Below, one piece after another: positions 51,101 through 63,946 of a stretch of 64,000 bases of DNA. The position numbers were made by a program, and so were the translations under genes. The notes below the pieces were generated by a model. That model was not told the DNA's origin, searched no databases, and worked only from the letters and a program-made list of their open reading frames with translations. Source of the DNA: a bacterium (GTDB lineage: Bacteria > Bdellovibrionota > Bacteriovoracia > Bacteriovoracales > Bacteriovoracaceae); contig JAUHVL010000017.1 in the NCBI GenBank assembly GCA_030425045.1, positions 1 through 64,000 on the forward strand. Direction: 5' to 3'. Every line of letters begins with the position of its first letter. Within the stretch, counting starts at the first letter, position 1.

Positions 51101-51985
51101 TTAGCTACATTTACCAGAACAGCAATCTTGATTTTCACTTGGTTGCTCTTTTTGAGGCTTTGAGAGCTTAATAATTGTTAATCCACCCTTAATAACAATA
51201 AGTGAAACAAGACCACCGATAATTAAGTCAGGGATATTAGTTTTGAAAAAGTAAACTAAAGCACCAGATATAATAACACCTGTATTTACAATGACATCAT
51301 TGGCAGAAAATATCCAACTGGCTTTCATATGCACTTCCCCATCCTTATGTTTATGAATAAGAGTAAGACACCATACATTTGCAATTAGAGCAACAATTGA
51401 GACGATTATCATAAAGTTTGATAGAGGCTCACTTCCAAAATAAAATTTTCGACCTACTTCAACAAGACATAATAAGCCTAATGAAATTTGCATAACACCA
51501 CTTAAGAAGGCTGTTTTGTTTTTAACATGAACACTTTTGCCAACAGCATATAGGCTAATACCGTAAACAAAAGAATCTGCCAGCATATCTAATCCGTCAG
51601 CAATCAACCCCGTCGACTCTGCGTAAAATCCCAAAAATATTTCAACAAGAAACATTGTGAAATTAATGGCGAGTAAGTATTTTAAGGTTTTTGCTTCAAC
51701 GCTTGGAGCAATTTCAGGAACGTCACTTTCTAAGATATCTTCAGATGATAAAAGTGTTCCTGGCAGTGAAATATTTTCTAACCCCTGAAGAATTAGATTT
51801 AAATCACAACGATGGTAAAAACTTACAGTTCGATCTCCTAAATCAAACTCCATTTTAATTTCTTGATCAATTTTTTCAACAATTCCTTCGATCATTTTGA
51901 TTTCTGAAGGACAGTCCATTTTTTGAATTTTTATTTTTGTCTTTTTCATTATTGTATCTTTTGCTTTTTTAGTAATTATATCCAT
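51101..51985 (-). CDS. CDF-like cation transporter with N-terminal HMA-like domain and Cys tail
   Basis: This 294-residue protein starts with a heavy-metal-associated-like domain (KIQKMDCPSEIKMIE; the usual MxCxxC is MDCPSE). Six membrane helices of the cation-diffusion-facilitator type follow. Helix 2 shows 'DGLDMLADSFVYGISLYAVG' and helix 5 'SANDVIVNTGV', which hold the metal-site Asp residues. The last residues are CCSGKCS, a soft-metal-binding tail. The metal could be Zn, Cd, Co or Cu. An ATG at 51949 directly before the HMA part is an alternative start. Its start overlaps the previous gene by 10 bp. Confidence 0.75.
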   Translation of the reverse strand: MDIITKKAKDTIMKKTKIKIQKMDCPSEIKMIEGIVEKIDQEIKMEFDLGDRTVSFYHRCDLNLILQGLENISLPGTLLSSEDILESDVPEIAPSVEAKTLKYLLAINFTMFLVEIFLGFYAESTGLIADGLDMLADSFVYGISLYAVGKSVHVKNKTAFLSGVMQISLGLLCLVEVGRKFYFGSEPLSNFMIIVSIVALIANVWCLTLIHKHKDGEVHMKASWIFSANDVIVNTGVIISGALVYFFKTNIPDLIIGGLVSLIVIKGGLTIIKLSKPQKEQPSENQDCCSGKCS

Positions 51986-52431
51986 CGACGTACTGATTTT
52001 TTATACTCTAAGTAATCTTCACCGAAACTATTTGTTAAGACTCGTTCTTCGGGGAGTATTTGAAAGTAGTTCATATACAAAACGAATCCCACTGCCAGTA
52101 TTAGAGAATAAGGATTTCTTAGAAAGACACCAAGAGATAACAGCCAAAGAAGAAATCCTAAATACATAGGGTTTCTTGTAAATTTATAAACTCCTCTTAT
52201 AACAAGACTATTACTTTCTTGTGGAGACATTGGATTCACTGTAGTTTTCTGCTTCTTAAATTCCCACACTCCAAGAGCTGAGACTAAGCAACCGATCAAA
52301 AACAATACCCCTGAGAATACATCTAAAACCATCGAATTACTTATTTCATAGATGCTTGGCATTGCCCAGATTAAGACCCCAAATATAAGGGCCACAAGTA
52401 ATGGAGGTATTTTTAGCTCAAGCCTTTTCAT
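51976..52431 (-). CDS. isoprenylcysteine carboxyl methyltransferase (ICMT)-family membrane protein
   Basis: This 151-residue protein has four helices and the ICMT/PEMT motif: 'LVIRGVYKFTRNPMYLGFLL' and 'LPEERVLTNSFGEDYLEYKK', which bind S-adenosylmethionine. Proteins of this family are often found with czc-type genes; what they methylate there is not known. It overlaps the CDF genes on both sides (4 and 10 bp), so it is firmly part of the metal-efflux operon. Confidence 0.85.
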   Translation of the reverse strand: MKRLELKIPPLLVALIFGVLIWAMPSIYEISNSMVLDVFSGVLFLIGCLVSALGVWEFKKQKTTVNPMSPQESNSLVIRGVYKFTRNPMYLGFLLWLLSLGVFLRNPYSLILAVGFVLYMNYFQILPEERVLTNSFGEDYLEYKKSVRRWI

Positions 52432-53321
52432 TTCTCTTCCACACTATGAGTACCATCACAACCATTCTCAGATTCAAACTCAATTGTTGAGTAAGTTACA
52501 TTATACTTCTTCAAAATTTCTTTTATCTTAACCTTTAATGAGTCAACAGTCCCAATCTTTGTTTCTTCCGGTACAAGAACATGAAAGCGCAAATAGTATG
52601 TTGTATCATCAATAGACCATCCTTTAACAGCATGTATATCATTTACAAGGTCAAGTTCCATAACTTCATTTTTCAATTGCTCAAATTCAAGTTCATCAGG
52701 AAATTTTTGAAGAAAAATCAAACCAACTTTAAGTAAGTTCTTATAAACACCTCTAAGTATAACTAAAGAAATAAGTATAGAAAGTATTGAATCTAGTACA
52801 TACCAAGGCTTGAATAGTAAGACGATACTGACAACAAGTACAGCAACCCATCCGAGTAAATCCTCTAAAAGATGGAACATGACCATTTTTGTATTCATGC
52901 CATCATCCTTGGATAATCTGTAAGCGGCAAATGAGTTTACTAAAATACCTAATATCGCCAAACCAAGCATTCCTTCAGGAGACACTTTTTCAGGGGCCAT
53001 TATTCTCTGTGAAGCTTCATAAATTACAAAAATACTTCCCAGTAATAATATAACTCCATTAATTAAAGCTGATAGTATTGAAAAACGTCGATAGCCAAAT
53101 GTGAAATTATCATCAGCATCTTTGTGGCTAAGCTTTTCAGCAAAATAAGAAAAAAGTAAAGCTAAACTATCACCAAAGTCATGTAGAGCATCAGAATATA
53201 TGGCAACACTATTTGTTAAATATCCACCGATTAGCTCTATTACGGCAAACCCTGCATTTAGGAAAAAGGCAACAAGTATATTCTTGTTGCCATGATGGTG
53301 ATGAGAGTGACTATTCCCCAT
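52428..53321 (-). CDS. cation diffusion facilitator (ZitB/CzcD-type)
   Basis: This 297-residue protein has a His-rich N-terminus (NSHSHHHHGN), six helices and a C-terminal ferredoxin-like cytoplasmic domain. The tetrahedral zinc site is visible in helix 2 (YSDALHDFGDSL, HDxxD type) and helix 5 (HLLEDLLGWVAVL). It exports Zn, Cd or Co from cytoplasm to periplasm with proton exchange, feeding the RND pump. It overlaps the CzcA gene by 11 bp and the ICMT gene by 4 bp. Confidence 0.9.
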   Translation of the reverse strand: MGNSHSHHHHGNKNILVAFFLNAGFAVIELIGGYLTNSVAIYSDALHDFGDSLALLFSYFAEKLSHKDADDNFTFGYRRFSILSALINGVILLLGSIFVIYEASQRIMAPEKVSPEGMLGLAILGILVNSFAAYRLSKDDGMNTKMVMFHLLEDLLGWVAVLVVSIVLLFKPWYVLDSILSILISLVILRGVYKNLLKVGLIFLQKFPDELEFEQLKNEVMELDLVNDIHAVKGWSIDDTTYYLRFHVLVPEETKIGTVDSLKVKIKEILKKYNVTYSTIEFESENGCDGTHSVEEK

Positions 53322-56300
53322 ACGCCTCCTTATTTAGCTCTGGTTGCATGAACTTAATAAATAGACGATATAAACTTGGAAGAACAATCAAAGTAAGAAG
53401 AGTCGCCGAAATAATCCCTCCAACAACAACGGTTGCTAAAGGCTTTTGCACTTCAGCTCCTAGACCTGTTGAAAACATCATAGGTAAAAATCCAAAGATG
53501 TCTGTTAGGGCCGTCATTAAGACTGGCCTCAATCTCGTCATAGCACCTTCTTTAACTACCTCGTCTGGAGACTTACCATCCTTTATAAGTCTATTAAAAT
53601 AAGTTACTAGAACAACACCGTTTAGAATACTTATTCCTGAAAGAGCAATAAAGCCAACACCTGCCGAAATGCTGAAAGGCATTCCCATTATATTTAATGA
53701 TAAGACACCACCGATTAAGGCCATTGGCGCACAAGTAAAAATCAAAATCACTTGAGCAAAGTTTTTAAATGCAGCATATAACATAGCTAAAATCATAAGA
53801 AGTGCCAGAGGTACAAGAATCCCAAGTCTCTCCTTTGCACTTTGAAGATTTTTAAATGTTCCTCCCCATTCAATAAAGTAGCCTTCAGGAAGCTTAACTC
53901 TACTTTCAACCTCTTTTTTTGCTTTATTAACAAAACTCTCAATATCCCGTGTATCAGGATTAACAAGTACAGCCACTCTACGTTGAGAGTTTTCACGGCT
54001 AACAGCAGAGAATGTTTCAACAAAATCTATATCTGCCACTTGTTCAATAGGAACAGTAAAGCCATCAGAAATACCAACTGGAAGTTTTCTTACGGTCATA
54101 ACATCTTTTCTTTCACCTTCTGAAAGACGGGTGACAATTGGAAACCTTTTTACACCATCAAAAACATGACCAACTTCACGACCTCCAATTGCGGTACTAA
54201 TTGCATCTAAAACAGGTCTCGCTGTGACGCCTAACTGAGCTAATTCTTCTACTTTCGGAGTATATTGAAGCATTGGTGATTTACCTTTGGATTCGGATTC
54301 AGCTTCACCAGCACCATCTATTTCACCAACAATTTCAGCAACCTCTTTTGAGTATGAAATTAGCTTATCAAGATCGTCACCAAACACTTTTGCCGAAATC
54401 GCGGCTCTTGTTCCTTCTAAAAGTTCGTTAAAGCGCAATTCTACTGGTTGTGAAAGCATAAGAACTTGGCCCGGAACAAATAGCTCAAGTTTTTCCTTGA
54501 TTTCATTCATTAAGTTTTTCTTATTCTGAATGTGGTCATCGTGGGGCCACTTACTCTTATCTTTAAGCATAATATAAGAGTCCGAAATATTTACACCCAT
54601 TGGATCAGTAGCAACTTCAGCAGCACCTGTCCTTGCAAACACATCTTTAACCTGTGGAAATTCTTTTATAATGTCTTCTGATAATCTTTGAAGTTTTACA
54701 GAGTTTTCAGTGCTGATGTTCGCTGGTCGGATAAACTGAATAGCAAAATCACCTTCATCTAATTGAGGAATAAACTCAGCACCCATTCTTGAAAACAAGA
54801 AAACACCCATAACAATAGAAGCTATGCCAATTCCAAGAACGCCTTTTTTAAACCTTAATGCAAAACTTAAAGTTGGCATGAACAGCTTTTCTGCCATCCC
54901 CATAAGAAATGGCTTCTTATCTCTTGTTTTCCCACTTAAAAACGTGGCCGCTAAAGCAGGAACAACAGTAAAAGAAAGAAGCAGAGCTGAACCTAGTGCC
55001 ATTATAAAAGTCATTGCCATCGGCCCAAACATTTTGCCCTCGACACCAGTTAAAGCAAAAAGTGGTATAAATACTGTAATAACAATTAGCTCACCAAAAC
55101 CAGCAGCAGAACGTATTTCAATTGCTGAGTCGATAACTAACTGTTTAACTTCCGCTCTTGATAACTCTCTACCAAGTTCTTCACCTTTCTTCTGCAACCT
55201 GTGGACACAGTTTTCTATGACAATAACTGCACCATCAACAATAATCCCAAAGTCCAATGCACCTAAACTCATTAAATTCCCTGAGACATTTTGCCATCTC
55301 ATAAGAATAAAAGTCATAAGTAGAGAAACGGGAATCATTAACGAAGTAATTATGGCCGCTCTTAAATTACCTACAAGGAGTAATAAGAACACCATAACAA
55401 GGCCCGCCCCCATAAGAAGATTATGCTCAACGGTACTCAGCGTAGCGTTTACCATATTAGAGCGATCATAAAGAACTTTAAGTTCAACCCATTCTGGTAA
55501 ATCTTTTTTCACATCTTCAAGTTTAGATGAAACTCTTTGTGCCACGGCTCTTGAATTTTCCCCTAAGAGCATAAAGGCAGTACCAATAATTGATTCTTCT
55601 CCATTCACCGTAGCTGCACCAGTACGAATTTCTTTATCAAACTTTACTTGGGCAATATCTTTTATTTTAATGACTTGATAAGAAGAAAGCCTCTTAACTA
55701 CTACATTTTCAATGTCTTTAATGCCTTTTAATAGACCAACACCTCTCACAAGAAGCTGTTCTCCTGTTTGTTGTATATATCCACCGCCAACATTGAGATT
55801 TGTATTTTCAATCGCTGCTTCAATGTCATCAAAGTGAAGACCGAATTTAGACATCTGGTCAATTCTCGGTTGAATAAAAAACTGCTTTTCATAACCACCA
55901 ATGGTATTGACTTCGGTAACACCCTTAACGGTTAAAAGCCTTGGCTTTATATACCAATCTTGTATTGATCGAAGTTCCATTAACTGAAGGAGTCTTTTTT
56001 CTTCATCTTTTTCAGGAGATTTAGCCTCTATGGAGTAATGAAATATTTCTCCAAGCCCTGTACTGATTGGCCCCATCTCAGGGACAACTCCAGCAGGCAA
56101 TTCAATATTTTGCAACTTCTCAGAAGCAAGCTGCCTTGCCTTGTAAATATCAGTTCCTTCTTTGAAGATAACTGTCACCTGAGAGATACCATACCTAGAA
56201 ATAGACCTAATCGTTTCAACCCCAGGAATACCATTCATGGAGTATTCGATGGGAAACGTAACCATCCTTTCTACCTCTTCAGGCACAAGTCCTTTTACTT

Positions 56301-56454
56301 GAGAATTGATTTGTACTTGAGTGTTCGTAATATCAGGAACAGCGTCTATAGACAGCTCTTGAAATGACTTTAAACCAAAAACAATTAATAAGAGAGTCGC
56401 CATGAAGACAAACATCCTATTATTAACTGAAAATTCTATAACTTTGTTAATCAT
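53311..56454 (-). CDS. czcA: CzcA-type heavy-metal efflux RND transporter (Zn/Co/Cd type)
   Basis: This 1047-residue protein is full length, with 12 membrane helices and two large periplasmic loops. Helix 4 carries DFGIIVDGAVIVIEN, whose two Asp and one Glu match the proton relay of divalent-metal CzcA. 'TGAAEVATDPMGVNISDSYI' and 'MLSQPVELRFNELLEGTRAA' are the typical substrate-loop blocks of this group. It drives metal out by proton influx together with an outer-membrane channel and an adaptor. The only adaptor-like protein directly next to it is the unusually short one at 56474-57034. Confidence 0.93.
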   Translation of the reverse strand: MINKVIEFSVNNRMFVFMATLLLIVFGLKSFQELSIDAVPDITNTQVQINSQVKGLVPEEVERMVTFPIEYSMNGIPGVETIRSISRYGISQVTVIFKEGTDIYKARQLASEKLQNIELPAGVVPEMGPISTGLGEIFHYSIEAKSPEKDEEKRLLQLMELRSIQDWYIKPRLLTVKGVTEVNTIGGYEKQFFIQPRIDQMSKFGLHFDDIEAAIENTNLNVGGGYIQQTGEQLLVRGVGLLKGIKDIENVVVKRLSSYQVIKIKDIAQVKFDKEIRTGAATVNGEESIIGTAFMLLGENSRAVAQRVSSKLEDVKKDLPEWVELKVLYDRSNMVNATLSTVEHNLLMGAGLVMVFLLLLVGNLRAAIITSLMIPVSLLMTFILMRWQNVSGNLMSLGALDFGIIVDGAVIVIENCVHRLQKKGEELGRELSRAEVKQLVIDSAIEIRSAAGFGELIVITVFIPLFALTGVEGKMFGPMAMTFIMALGSALLLSFTVVPALAATFLSGKTRDKKPFLMGMAEKLFMPTLSFALRFKKGVLGIGIASIVMGVFLFSRMGAEFIPQLDEGDFAIQFIRPANISTENSVKLQRLSEDIIKEFPQVKDVFARTGAAEVATDPMGVNISDSYIMLKDKSKWPHDDHIQNKKNLMNEIKEKLELFVPGQVLMLSQPVELRFNELLEGTRAAISAKVFGDDLDKLISYSKEVAEIVGEIDGAGEAESESKGKSPMLQYTPKVEELAQLGVTARPVLDAISTAIGGREVGHVFDGVKRFPIVTRLSEGERKDVMTVRKLPVGISDGFTVPIEQVADIDFVETFSAVSRENSQRRVAVLVNPDTRDIESFVNKAKKEVESRVKLPEGYFIEWGGTFKNLQSAKERLGILVPLALLMILAMLYAAFKNFAQVILIFTCAPMALIGGVLSLNIMGMPFSISAGVGFIALSGISILNGVVLVTYFNRLIKDGKSPDEVVKEGAMTRLRPVLMTALTDIFGFLPMMFSTGLGAEVQKPLATVVVGGIISATLLTLIVLPSLYRLFIKFMQPELNKEAYGE

Positions 56455-56473: not shown

Positions 56474-57034
56474 TCAGTGAGAGTGGCCATATTCTGACTT
56501 ATCCGTCGAATAGACATCTGTAACTCTAAGAAGTCCAATCCCATTGATTACAATTTGGTCACCAAATTCCACACCTGCGACCTTAACTTTATATCCAGAT
56601 TTAGTTTCTTTTAGAATTTTTGCGTTAAGTAGTTTGAAAAATCCTGCTCTAAATCTATAAACCCCTTTAATGCTTTTTGAACTTACTAATGTAGCTTTAC
56701 TAATCTCAAATTCGTCTCCATCAACATTTTGAAGTCTAAGCTTTAAGGTCTTAATTGCTTCCTTGCTTAACTTGAATCCTTTTTTCTCGTCTACAACTTC
56801 AATGGCTTTACCTTTGCCAATAGCTTTAGAAGCACCATGATCGTGCCCCTTATGATCATCATGGTCGTCATGTTTTGAGTGATCGTGCCCCTTGTGATCA
56901 TCGTGATCGTCATGTTTTTCTTCCTGCTTTGAATGATCATGCCCTTTGTGAGAAGAATGATCATGATCACCTTCAGCAAATGCTAGGTTACTAATTAAAA
57001 ATATAGTCATAGTTATAAATTTGATATTTTTCAT
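56474..57034 (-). CDS. His-rich periplasmic 'mini-CzcB' adaptor-like protein
   Basis: This 186-residue protein has a signal peptide (1-20). Residues 23-68 are a His/Asp-rich repeat region with a 14-residue unit (HDDHDDHKGHDHSK) twice and part of a third. Residues 80-186 resemble the outer parts of CzcB-type membrane fusion proteins: 'FKLSKEAIKTLKLRLQNV' like the N-terminal strand and 'YKVKVAGVEFGDQIVINGIG' like the C-terminal membrane-proximal domain. The lipoyl and helical-hairpin parts are missing. It lies where czcB is expected, between the TolC-type gene (9 bp) and czcA (19 bp). Likely metal binder and adaptor in one. Confidence 0.6.
   Translation of the reverse strand: MKNIKFITMTIFLISNLAFAEGDHDHSSHKGHDHSKQEEKHDDHDDHKGHDHSKHDDHDDHKGHDHGASKAIGKGKAIEVVDEKKGFKLSKEAIKTLKLRLQNVDGDEFEISKATLVSSKSIKGVYRFRAGFFKLLNAKILKETKSGYKVKVAGVEFGDQIVINGIGLLRVTDVYSTDKSEYGHSH
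56837..56965 (-). repeat. tandem His-coding repeats inside the mini-CzcB gene
   Basis: The stretch encodes residues 24-66 with a 42-bp unit present twice in full and partly a third time. The copies differ at a few third positions, so it is an old but still recognisable tandem duplication. It adds metal-binding histidines. Confidence 0.6.
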
Positions 57035-57043
57035 AATGTCCTC

Positions 57044-58276
57044 TTATAGCTTTTCAGTAAAAACTGTTCCGTTAATTTTATAGATATTCCATAGTGCCTC
57101 GGCAGCACCTAATTCAAACTCATTGCGAGTATTAGCAAATTCAATCAATTGCCTATGAGATTCAATAATCATTGCTGTTGAAATCACTCCTCTTTTAAAG
57201 AGCTTTTCAATTTTTAAGTGCTTCTTATCAAGGTCTTCTCTTGTGGCAATAGTTTTAAGGCTACTACCCAAAGCATTGTATTTTTCAATCCATGCTTCTA
57301 AATCTAGGGAAGCTTCTCTTTTAATATTCTTGTATCTCACTCTTGCAGTATTCATTTGCTCTAATGCTTGACCTTTAGAACCAGAGTTAGTGCTAAGAAT
57401 TGGTAAATCCATACTTATACTCAATCCAATAGACTGATAATTCTTTCCATTGATATTTTCAGTCTCAAAAGCTGGCCCAATTTTTAAATCAGGATATGCA
57501 TTTGACCTCTCTAGTTCTAACTTCATTTTTGCTGATTCAAGATTATTTATCGCTACCTGAAGTTTTGAATAACTCGGAGTTTCTTTTTTCAGATTAAAAC
57601 TTCTTGTTAAGTCAACTTTCTGAGGAAGGGAATCTTGTTTGAGGTCACAGTTTTCACCAACGAAAAAGGATAGATGCCGACTCAGATTTATTTTCTCTGA
57701 TTTAAGTTTAGAGACTTTCAGCCTATAGTCATTAGTTGCCAGCACAAGAGTTTCTTTTTCAACTTGTTCCTCTGGAGAGAGTGATTTTCTTTTTAGCTTA
57801 ACCTTTAAAATCTTATTAAAAGCCTCATAAGCCTCCTCGTATATTGGAATTAGCTCTTTAACTTGCCTTAATCTGTAAGCCTTGAGGATTGCATCTATAA
57901 GTACATCTTCGTTTGAATCTTGGACTGATGCTTTAAATTGTTTTCTCTTACTATCAGCAAAATCTATTCTCGAAGACCTCTTGCCCCCAAGCTCAATTGT
58001 ATGCATGAGTGATAAGCTAATTCTATCGACGTCACCATCTATTTCTTCGCCTTTCATTCCTTGAGCCTGAAATTCAGGGTTTGGCCTTTGTTTGGCAACC
58101 TCAACCCATTTCTCAGAAACTTTAATAGATGAGTTGTTTTCAATAACTTGAGGATGACTGTTTTTGAAGCTCTCTAAAAGTTCAGTTGGTGTTTTAAAAT
58201 CACAATTTGCAAATGAATTTTCTGTAAGAAAAAAACTTGCTATAAGCGATATAACATAAAGTATTAATTTATTCAT
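57044..58276 (-). CDS. czcC: TolC-family outer-membrane efflux protein (CzcC-type)
   Basis: This 410-residue protein has a signal peptide (1-23). The fold is two repeats of the outer-membrane factor family: 'NPEFQAQGMKGEEIDGDVDR', 'LSLMHTIELGGKRSSRI' in the first, and 'AYPDLKIGPAFETENINGKN', 'ISMDLPILSTNSGSKGQALE' in the second. 'LGGKR' and 'P(I/L)' strands at these sites are usual in CzcC. It is the channel for the RND pump. Its ribosome site lies in a predicted hairpin that starts in the upstream gene. Confidence 0.88.
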   Translation of the reverse strand: MNKLILYVISLIASFFLTENSFANCDFKTPTELLESFKNSHPQVIENNSSIKVSEKWVEVAKQRPNPEFQAQGMKGEEIDGDVDRISLSLMHTIELGGKRSSRIDFADSKRKQFKASVQDSNEDVLIDAILKAYRLRQVKELIPIYEEAYEAFNKILKVKLKRKSLSPEEQVEKETLVLATNDYRLKVSKLKSEKINLSRHLSFFVGENCDLKQDSLPQKVDLTRSFNLKKETPSYSKLQVAINNLESAKMKLELERSNAYPDLKIGPAFETENINGKNYQSIGLSISMDLPILSTNSGSKGQALEQMNTARVRYKNIKREASLDLEAWIEKYNALGSSLKTIATREDLDKKHLKIEKLFKRGVISTAMIIESHRQLIEFANTRNEFELGAAEALWNIYKINGTVFTEKL

Positions 58277-58283
58277 TTATCTT

Positions 58284-58341
58284 CCTAACAATAATTAATT
58301 GTTCTAAAACGGTTTCGTTTAAGTTTTTAATTATAGTTAGG
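58284..58341 (-). promoter_or_regulatory. structured leader with sequestered ribosome site before czcC
   Basis: On the minus strand, 58327-58341 and 58284-58298 form a 15-base inverted repeat with one mismatch (GTTAGG pairs with CCTAAC at the ends). The 28-base loop contains a further AAACG/CGTTT hairpin. The near arm includes GTTAGG, part of the TTAGGAAG ribosome site of the TolC-type gene. The far arm includes the stop codon of the preceding gene. Confidence 0.5.
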
Positions 58342-58693
58342 AAAAGAGCGGTGGCTTCAGTGCTGGATCAAGAAAAGGCTCATCATAGTGAAAGTTAAAA
58401 TACCAAGTAACTTTGCTATCTATACCTGTTTCAGAATTCAGTCTCATGGTCTGCTTATTTTCAATCAAGTTGTGTAGGCCAGAGCAGTGGTGCGCACAGT
58501 GTGTATCGTGATCATGGCACCCATCATCGTGACAGTCTTCACAGCCCTCAGTATTTATAGAACTTGTATAGCTATAGAACTCCGCTTTTATAGATATAGT
58601 ATCGTCGTGTTCAAAAGACAAAGCACTGACTTCATTTGATAATCCAAATATAAATCCAATTAAAATAAATATGCTCATTAATCTTTCAAACAT
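58337..58693 (-). CDS. exported His/Cys-rich small protein of the metal operon
   Basis: This 118-residue protein has a signal peptide (1-24). The middle has alternating Cys and His (EGCEDCHDDGCHDHDTHCAH), and it ends LDPALKPPLFS. It resembles the small proteins seen next to heavy-metal RND genes and the protein at 30674-31012. Probably a periplasmic metal buffer or sensor. It is the first gene of the czcC-mini-czcB-czcA-CDF unit and has a near-consensus promoter directly against its ATG. Confidence 0.6.
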   Translation of the reverse strand: MFERLMSIFILIGFIFGLSNEVSALSFEHDDTISIKAEFYSYTSSINTEGCEDCHDDGCHDHDTHCAHHCSGLHNLIENKQTMRLNSETGIDSKVTWYFNFHYDEPFLDPALKPPLFS

Positions 58694-58784: not shown

Positions 58785-59396
58785 TTAGTGATGGCTATCT
58801 TGTGAGCCACAGTGAGGCATATTGGGAGCATAAGGATTATGAACCTTTGCCATTTTACTGCTGTTTTGTACCCATTTCTTCTTAACCATTGGACAAGAAT
58901 AGGCATTATACTTTGAACCTACATCATATTTATTAACAATATGAATTAGGGCCATTGATACAATGTGATAGTTCTTATTATTAGTTTCTCTATCATTTGA
59001 AGCTTTAATTTCAGAAAGCTTATTTTTAGAAAAATTTAAAAGCTTTGCAACCTCTTTATCTTCAATTGCATCAATTGCCTTTTTTAATTTCATAGCATTT
59101 GATTCCACGGCTTTGGCATCATATTTAAAAAATGAGCTATGAAGTGCTTCATTCGCCTCTAAAGCTGATACGACCGATTTCTTCGCTGCTTCTGACAACG
59201 ACTTTCGATCACCTTTTTTCATCTTTGAATGATCCATTTTTGAATGATCCATTTTTGAATGATTCATCTTACTATGATCGTGACCTCCCTGAGTTCCTGA
59301 TGCATAGCTCTCCATCCCAAATAACCCAAGTGCAACCACACTTAGTACTAAGAATGATTTTTTTAATGATAGTTTCTTTTCACAATTTGGACACAT
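58785..59396 (-). CDS. DUF3347-domain periplasmic protein with His/Met repeats
   Basis: This 203-residue protein starts MCPNCEKK before a hydrophobic signal or anchor segment. A His/Met-rich repeat follows (HDHSKMNHSKMDHSKMDHSK; unit DHSKM), typical of Cu/Ag binding. Residues 75-195 are a DUF3347 four-helix domain, with the late block 'YNAYSCPMVKKKWVQNSSKM' and NPYAPNMPHCG. DUF3347 is often linked to CusB-type pumps and probably carries Cu(I) or Ag(I) to the pump. GGAGG lies five bases before the ATG at 59396. It lies 20 bp after cusA. Confidence 0.75.
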   Translation of the reverse strand: MCPNCEKKLSLKKSFLVLSVVALGLFGMESYASGTQGGHDHSKMNHSKMDHSKMDHSKMKKGDRKSLSEAAKKSVVSALEANEALHSSFFKYDAKAVESNAMKLKKAIDAIEDKEVAKLLNFSKNKLSEIKASNDRETNNKNYHIVSMALIHIVNKYDVGSKYNAYSCPMVKKKWVQNSSKMAKVHNPYAPNMPHCGSQDSHH

Positions 59397-59416
59397 ATAT
59401 ACCTCCATAGTAATTT

Positions 59417-62557: not shown

Positions 62558-63946
62558 TTAGTGGTTGTGACCTGAAGTTTTGGATTCTTTCATATCTTCG
62601 TAGCCACCAAAAAGTTGTGCTTGAGCATCTAATAGAAAATTTCCTTCAATCACGACTTCTTCGCCTTCCATTAAGCCATGTTTAATTTCAACGTAACCTT
62701 CAGATTCATAACCTGCATGAACAGTTTTTGCCTGAAAGTTCTTACCAGAAACCTTGACCCAGACGACTTTTCTTTTACCGGTATCAATCACTGCCGTTCT
62801 TGGTACAACAAGAGGCATTCCTTCTATATCTACATTTAAAACTGCATTTGCGATCATTCCGGGCTTTAACTTACCTGAAGCGTTTTCAATAGTTGCTCTA
62901 ACCTTTAATGTTCTTGATTTTTGATCTAGGACAGGGTTTACAAAATCTATTTCACCTACAAGCTTTTCCCCCGGAATAGCAGTAAATTCTAAATCTACTT
63001 TTTGTCCGATCTTAATTAATGATGAATCATGTTCATATACATCCATCTCGACCCAAACATCTGCTAAGTCTGATAGTTCAAAGAAGTTTTGCCCTTCTTT
63101 AAAGTATTTACCAACAGTAGCATTTCTTGATCGAACTATACCTGTTGCGTTTGAATATATTGTAATTTGTCTTGGCACTTTTCCTTTCTTATACCAATCT
63201 TCAAACTGAAATCTCTTAATTCCCCAAAGTTTGAGTCTTTCAATACTTTGCCCGAGCATATCTTTAAATTCTTTAGTTTTGCTTTTTGTATAACTTTTTC
63301 GAGCTAGTAAATATTCTTCTCCAGCAGTAATTAGTTTAGGACTATATAAATCAATTACAGGATCACCAATTTTAACCATACTCCCTGTTGACTTAACATA
63401 AACCTTTTCAACTCTCCCTCCAATACGAGCAGGGATATTGCTTTCCTTTTCCTCAGACTGGAGGACAGAACCAAGCAATCTAATTTTTTTAGTCATCTTC
63501 ATCGTCGTTACAGGAAAGAAGTCTGGCTCAAAATGTTTTAACTGCGCTTTTCTTAGTTTCACTTTAGCGACTACCTTAGCGGCCTTATTTTCCTTTGGTT
63601 TTTTGACCATTGGTGTACCATCCATAGGACAAACATCTTCAGTTTCGCTTGTCACGTCAGGAAAATCCTTACATTGCCAAATATCTTTTTCAGGAACTAC
63701 AGCCGCCTCTTGAATATCTTCTTCATCGTCAACTTCAATCTTTGTTAGATTCATATGACATATTGGACATTTTCCCATTTCTTTTTCTTTAATCTGTGGG
63801 TGCATAGAGCAAGTATAATAAACCTTAGTCTTAGAGTGTTCATGCCCATCAACAGTTTTACTTGATTCACTAGAGCCTTCTTTTTGACATGAAACACCTA
63901 TAACAAGGAGAAACATTAAAAATATAACACTGATTAACTTATTCAT
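62558..63946 (-). CDS. cusB: CusB-type periplasmic adaptor with two heavy-metal-binding modules
   Basis: This 462-residue protein has a lipoprotein-like signal (LVIGVSCQKEG). Two heavy-metal-binding modules follow: 'YYTCSMHPQIKEKEMGKCPI' CHM and 'WQCKDFPDVTSETEDVCPMD' GTPM. The rest is a CusB-type membrane fusion protein: beta-barrel, lipoyl part ('RIGGRVEKVYVKSTGSMVKI'), helical hairpin, then 'GMIANAVLNVDIEGMPLVVP'. CusB hands Cu(I)/Ag(I) to CusA. It is the first gene of the cus unit on this strand; AGGAGAG precedes the ATG. The last 54 bp of the window upstream show no clear promoter. Confidence 0.9.
   Translation of the reverse strand: MNKLISVIFLMFLLVIGVSCQKEGSSESSKTVDGHEHSKTKVYYTCSMHPQIKEKEMGKCPICHMNLTKIEVDDEEDIQEAAVVPEKDIWQCKDFPDVTSETEDVCPMDGTPMVKKPKENKAAKVVAKVKLRKAQLKHFEPDFFPVTTMKMTKKIRLLGSVLQSEEKESNIPARIGGRVEKVYVKSTGSMVKIGDPVIDLYSPKLITAGEEYLLARKSYTKSKTKEFKDMLGQSIERLKLWGIKRFQFEDWYKKGKVPRQITIYSNATGIVRSRNATVGKYFKEGQNFFELSDLADVWVEMDVYEHDSSLIKIGQKVDLEFTAIPGEKLVGEIDFVNPVLDQKSRTLKVRATIENASGKLKPGMIANAVLNVDIEGMPLVVPRTAVIDTGKRKVVWVKVSGKNFQAKTVHAGYESEGYVEIKHGLMEGEEVVIEGNFLLDAQAQLFGGYEDMKESKTSGHNH

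Follow-up and report, generated by a model that had tools for sequence, protein, structure and literature searches.

The membrane-proximal (MP) domain of RND adaptors is built from the C-terminal elements of the adaptor together with an N-terminal strand, and two jobs have been proposed for it, that of a spacer and that of a presenter of cargo (accessible part of a 2015 review, PMC4446572). For CusB, the available part of one report states that residues 1-61 alone confer partial copper resistance on a cusB deletion, and that they are required for it (PMC6235853). BesA of Borrelia burgdorferi is an adaptor of an RND operon that lacks the α-helical hairpin but retains its lipoyl and barrel domains, and no extra domains of its partners compensate for the loss, as far as the accessible portion of the source goes (PMC3807786). 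The same part of the review considers that nothing may challenge the tip-to-tip model more than hairpin-less assemblies such as that of BesA (PMC4446572). In alignments with CzcB, the hairpin stretch is also deleted in IhpB of a Nitrobacter plasmid (L167:3203-4153) and in a CzcB of an Alteromonas plasmid (L163:3304-4485), with the lipoyl and barrel parts still there, and hairpin-less metal adaptors may thus be common. P-II family regulator genes were observed directly before czcA in this Nitrobacter plasmid operon (L167:4143-4508) and in a Manganitrophus plasmid operon (L164:4044-4385). The best comparison for the locus described here is CzcB of C. metallidurans, a protein of 520 residues (TIGR00999) that is encoded on a plasmid in the gene order czcI-czcC-czcB-czcA-CDF.

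The analysed stretch of DNA (the window; 64,000 nucleotides, family Bacteriovoracaceae) harbours a cluster running from 58693 to 52428 with genes for a small secreted protein, CzcC, a strongly shortened CzcB (mini-CzcB), CzcA and a CDF transporter, which equals the order on the C. metallidurans plasmid. The features of this cluster and of the neighbouring cus operon are as follows.

52428-53321, minus strand: ZitB-like CDF transporter, encoded downstream of czcA, where the czc cluster of C. metallidurans also has its CDF gene
53311-56454, minus strand: CzcA-like RND pump, 1047 aa (TIGR00914, 1228 bits, cut-off 701)
56474-57034, minus strand: mini-CzcB gene in the czcB slot, 186 aa
56477-56512, minus strand: C-terminal tail YSTDKSEYGHSH with HxH; canonical CzcBs likewise end in HxH
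56507-56785, minus strand: MP domain core, residues 84-176, from the AlphaFold2 model and VIA alignments
56711-56728, minus strand: junction, residues 103-108 (approximate), inferred from the domain match and canonical CzcB sequences
56831-56974, minus strand: His-rich acidic stretch, residues 21-68, with 15 His and 16 Asp/Glu; presumed metal-gathering tail, function inferred
56975-57034, minus strand: signal peptide, residues 1-20 (...AFA|EGD), Sec-like, assigned by eye from the translation
57044-58276, minus strand: CzcC-like OMF, 410 aa (PF02321, E 1.7e-18; C. metallidurans CzcC has 418 aa)
58337-58693, minus strand: small His/Cys-rich secreted protein in the czcI place upstream of czcC, labelled CzcI by position only
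62558-63946, minus strand: complete CusB, encoded in the adjacent cus operon, a possible hairpin donor

The mini-CzcB gene starts 9 nt after the czcC-like gene and ends 19 nt before the czcA-like gene. Its product consists of a signal peptide, a His-rich stretch encoded in part by a 42-nt tandem repeat and, from residue 70 on, a conserved core. A sequence-only reading of this DNA had described a short gene of 186 residues in the czcB slot between czcC and czcA, composed of a signal, His repeats and CzcB-like segments. The ORF, which encodes exactly 186 aa, and its neighbours agree with the position, and the translation, the His residues counted in 21-68 and the predicted MP fold (see below) agree with the composition. 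Besides the hairpin and the lipoyl part, the losses named in that reading, the β-barrel is missing as well. Residues 103-108 are inferred to mark the point at which barrel, lipoyl domain and hairpin are inserted in canonical CzcB. The C-terminal tail is the most conserved stretch of the His-type minis, yet its pLDDT is only about 42-60. Of 80 distinct relatives, 61 end in HxH and another 16 carry Cx[HD]; HxH ends were also found in 4 canonical CzcBs. The operon slot, the His-rich N-terminal part, the MP domain and the terminal HxH are thus all shared with CzcB of C. metallidurans, while barrel, lipoyl domain and hairpin of CzcB/NccB are lacking. The CzcA-like pump shares 46.5% identity with C. 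metallidurans CzcA, the DFGIIVDGAVIVIEN motif being much alike in both, and genes similar to that of the small His/Cys-rich protein also occur upstream of czcC in several relatives. Further genes of the window include one for a secreted protein with NHSKMDHSKM repeats, weakly similar to the LIC13259/LIC11441 family, located between cusA and the czc operon (58785-59408), and one for a CDF-like transporter with a Cys-rich C-terminus and an N-terminal KMDCPSE segment that resembles a metal-binding domain (51101-51985). Relatives of the latter gene occur near some other mini operons. An isoprenylcysteine-methyltransferase-like gene (51976-52431) lies between the two CDF genes.

The AlphaFold2 model of the window core, built together with 31 relatives, has a pLDDT of 79.5 and a pTM of 0.70, and residues 75-186, compared with CzcB and CusB by structure prediction, adopt the MP domain fold. 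The best VIA matches of the model are CusB (3ne5_C; Z 9.1, rmsd 2.4, 91 residues between chain positions 79 and 393) and ZneB (3lnn_A; Z 9.0, rmsd 2.5, 91 residues between positions 10 and 350). The aligned residues are spread over more than 300 residues of the target, as expected for a domain built from both ends of an adaptor. All of the first 19 VIA rows are adaptors (Z 9.1 to 4.6), unrelated proteins starting from Z 4.0. The top 11 Foldseek matches in the PDB are likewise all adaptors, among them BesA, whose MP domain ranks among the top structural matches of the core, CusB and a SilB construct; no Foldseek PDB match of the core reached E 0.001 (best E 6.4e-3). The SilB construct (5a4g) has the same two modules as mini-CzcB according to its PDB title, the only part of that source used, namely an N-terminal metal site and an MP domain (Z 4.8), but it is an artificial fragment cut from a full adaptor. 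The predicted model identifies the core as a discontinuous MP domain of the CzcB/CusB/ZneB type.

Two features of adaptor family membership are thus met: an MP domain formed from an N-terminal strand and a C-terminal segment, and a gene placed between those for OMF and RND proteins. The other domains are lacking. The core of 117 residues is filled by the MP fold in the AlphaFold2 model and the window protein has no match to HlyD_D23 or HlyD_3, leaving no β-barrel; no lipoyl (barrel-sandwich) domain was found in the window protein by domain search or in the model, and the model has helices only at core positions 22-28 and 97-111, without a hairpin. Sequence comparison agrees with the fold. In a set of 20 diverse relatives, TIGR00999 (CzcB/NccB) matches 10 (best E 1.8e-5) and TIGR01730 matches 9 (best E 1.2e-6; 27.7 bits, cut-off 94.9), one of these relatives (L099) aligning to profile positions 239-314 of 322, and all stay well under the family cut-offs of both models. 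A home-made HMM of full adaptors matches another relative (L146) at 1e-5. Profile-profile comparison with canonical adaptors (hhalign) gave E values of 3.5e-4 and 0.0064, but with low probabilities of 37% and 6%. The window protein itself matches no adaptor model, TIGR00999 and TIGR01730 included, the 20 relatives have no Pfam adaptor domain among the families listed (25 of 45), and a sequence search of the PDB yielded no meaningful match. TIGR02828 ('putative membrane fusion protein', 188 positions) is a similarly short adaptor-like model, and the C-terminal part of a CusB aligns to its positions 42-186; however, only 2 of the 20 relatives match it (best E 0.0029), and no protein of the own genome exceeds its cut-off of 154.4 bits. 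By its defining domains, mini-CzcB is outside the adaptor family as it is modelled at present, but it descends from that family, and it probably keeps one of the two adaptor jobs.

Mini-CzcB is not restricted to this locus. The genome itself encodes a second copy of 143 aa (G000:C81:20397-20705; L002:1417-1848; L049:6314-6745) without a His stretch, ending in ACVD instead of HSH, which follows an ArsR-type regulator gene and is located between czcC2- and czcA2-like genes. The window protein matches 37 of the 95 genomes of its family, and a profile of 20 relatives retrieved members in 127 of the 368 genomes of the phylum, 5 of these only at E 4e-4 to 1e-3. With these five weak matches left out, 16 family labels are represented. 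The Bdellovibrio group consists of predatory bacteria. A pattern scan of a contig collection confirmed 32 of 131 stretches, all in Bdellovibrionota groups, including Bacteriovorax and Halobacteriovorax; since the scan covered only two close, His-type patterns, members in other phyla may have escaped it. A tblastn search of 72,556 plasmid records with the core and with the second paralogue found no relatives of either.

The neighbourhood census was confined to 85 loci with wider flanks, which comprise 80 distinct gene sequences, and does not extend to all 127 genomes. The same short gene was indeed found in other czc operons without a full czcB: an RND gene lies directly 3' in 77 of the 80 distinct loci, the remaining three being two contig ends and one orphan. 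This orphan (L107:3797-4312, the same as L045) has neither an OMF nor an RND neighbour and lacks the C-terminal HxH. An OMF gene is adjacent on the 5' side in 57 of the 80; in a further 15, extra genes intervene and the OMF gene is 1.9-2.9 kb upstream; in 8 no OMF was seen by HMM, several of these having short flanks. Among these 8, one locus has a diverged adjacent czcC detected by BLAST (L098) and another has an OMF gene on the other strand (L151). Of the 29 short-flank loci L020-L048, analysed separately by BLAST, 28 have a czcA-like gene next to the mini, the exception being L045. The same reduced architecture was found in 85 of 85 loci. In none of these does a full adaptor gene occur between the OMF and RND genes, and their sole full-adaptor match is the CusB of a neighbouring cus operon (L080). 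The 80 distinct relatives are 126 to 277 aa long. As 27 of them have fewer than 6 His residues before the core, the His-rich tail is not needed for the function of the family, which suggests that the MP domain, and not the tail, is the essential part.

The missing domains might be supplied by other operon proteins. The 15 loci with extra genes (e.g. L062:3383-5759) encode a lipoprotein of about 215 aa and a second OEP-like protein between OMF and mini, often with a small lipoprotein that is fused to the OEP-like protein in one locus (L069). The larger lipoprotein was modelled with a pLDDT of 85.2 as a 46-residue helix and a β-sheet body, and none of the 50 Foldseek matches listed for it is an adaptor (best E 4.5e-3, GID4 and phycobiliprotein lyase). 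Going by these listed matches, the extra genes were rejected as suppliers of the missing domains, and the window operon has no such genes between czcC and mini. Compensation inside the partners was rejected as well: CzcC (410 aa) and CzcA (1047 aa) are of ordinary length, and all that sets the CzcA proteins of the mini group apart is a few indels, each of 1-5 residues, the largest near 797-801 (C. metallidurans CzcA numbering).

Mini-CzcB has retained the MP fold and the C-terminal HxH and has lost barrel, lipoyl domain and hairpin. We consider it quite probable that the protein is a CzcB descendant cut down to a metal-gathering tail and an MP domain, a load-and-dock adaptor that builds no conduit. 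The His-rich tail and the terminal HxH would gather ions of the Zn/Co/Cd type in the periplasm, which is inferred, metal binding being untested. The MP domain would dock on the CzcA porter domain in the way CusB docks on CusA, pass the metal on and gate or activate the pump; docking, activation and support of efflux are equally inferred and have not been tested. The cargo-presenting job of the adaptor would be kept and the bridging job dropped. As a mini cannot form a tunnel, contact between CzcA and CzcC is direct or runs via another partner, or there is no sealed conduit, and the pump must reach the outer membrane in a way that textbook models do not provide for.

An unlikely alternative that involves such a partner is a mixed ring, in which minis fill some of the MP positions on CzcA and a CusB from a neighbouring operon bridges the gap to CzcC with its barrel, lipoyl domain and hairpin. 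A full CusB is encoded about 5.5 kb away in the window and a second one elsewhere in the genome. A strong CusB (PF16576, E<1e-40) is moreover found in 31 of the 37 family genomes that have a mini but only in 16 of the 58 that do not (Fisher p 7e-8), so that borrowing in this cell is not excluded. However, phylogeny was not controlled for and the association may merely mirror shared ancestry or metal-rich habitats; both CusBs of the own genome have their own CusA and CusC. Furthermore, a strong CusB is missing in 6 of the 37 mini genomes (G014, G020, G021, G034, G062, G082), of which five have other adaptor-like matches and G020 has none. G021, with its three mini operons, has a type I secretion HlyD encoded next to an ABC transporter and otherwise just a CusB of 271 aa. 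This CusB-like protein (L103:4581-5396) has a metal-binding domain and a piece of barrel, without lipoyl domain or hairpin, and is apparently a separate, intermediate adaptor reduction in the same phylum. Phylum-wide, four mini genomes (G020, G163, G197, G199) carry no adaptor over cut-off for TIGR01730, HlyD_D23 or HlyD_3, the best TIGR01730 E values being none, 4.6e-4, 9.6e-5 and 1.0e-5, respectively; in a fifth candidate (G243) a HlyD_3 match is present. The operon was inspected for G020, G197 and G199 (L097, L133, L134) but not for G163. These assemblies are 93-98% complete and an adaptor could be missed in any single one, but four such genomes indicate that borrowing of a CusB hairpin is not the general answer. 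No full czcB for the window pump was found in the own genome (99.91% complete), where the sole adaptors to pass the cut-off are two CusB proteins, both of cus operons. The slot, the MP fold and this absence support the earlier proposal that the gene takes the place of CzcB. That reading had left two options, assembly without a hairpin or use of the hairpin of the CusB at 62558; the first is favoured, and the second is disfavoured, though not excluded in this cell.

Small size, a His-rich tail and the lack of a Pfam adaptor domain would also fit a periplasmic metal buffer or chaperone, CusF/CzcE-like, that has an MP-type fold and is no stable part of a pump. This is very unlikely in view of the near-fixed slot directly before czcA (77/80), the coherence with one CzcA clade, the retention of the core in low-His members and the known role of the MP fold, which is contact with the transporter.

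The history of the gene was studied with the RND proteins. In a tree of 64 of the 82 distinct sequences, 55 of them mini-linked, all 55 mini-linked rows group together and are divided from canonical CzcA and IhpC by a branch with an SH-aLRT of 99. The tree was made by a quick method, with midpoint rooting for drawing only, and the CusA-type rows are on long branches. As the mini-linked pumps form one clade, the reduction looks ancient and single. Core dN/dS is 0.065 (dS 0.28) and 0.062 (dS 1.85, near saturation) in two pairs, two other pairs giving no dS, and judged from these sequence pairs the mini gene is under purifying selection with a dN/dS of about 0.06. The single pump clade and the low dN/dS point to an old, selected reduction. 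A decayed or mis-assembled czcB, which a short protein without three of the four domains might recall, can practically be ruled out by this dN/dS and by the occurrence of the same architecture in 85 of 85 loci and of the gene in 127 of 368 genomes.

Mini-CzcB is the far end of the hairpin-loss series formed by BesA, IhpB and the Alteromonas CzcB. BesA, in the accessible part of its description, still retains the lipoyl and barrel domains that mini-CzcB does not have (PMC3807786). Loss of the hairpin alone therefore has a precedent, and as far as was found the additional loss of lipoyl domain and barrel is undescribed in the literature searched, which left out most subscription papers. It is disputed whether adaptor hairpins alone join the pump and the exit duct, and here lipoyl domain and barrel are gone too, in many species. 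A natural adaptor consisting of the MP domain only separates the proposed jobs of spacer and cargo presenter and makes the question directly testable. With no further domains above it to support, the MP domain of mini-CzcB cannot serve as a spacer here. We tentatively put forward, as a possibility that is still somewhat doubtful, that RND metal pumps which rely on an MP-only adaptor and lack any tunnel made by adaptors occur phylum-wide, with CzcA standing directly on CzcC (or with unsealed export) and an adaptor that is purely metal-presenting and pump-gating.
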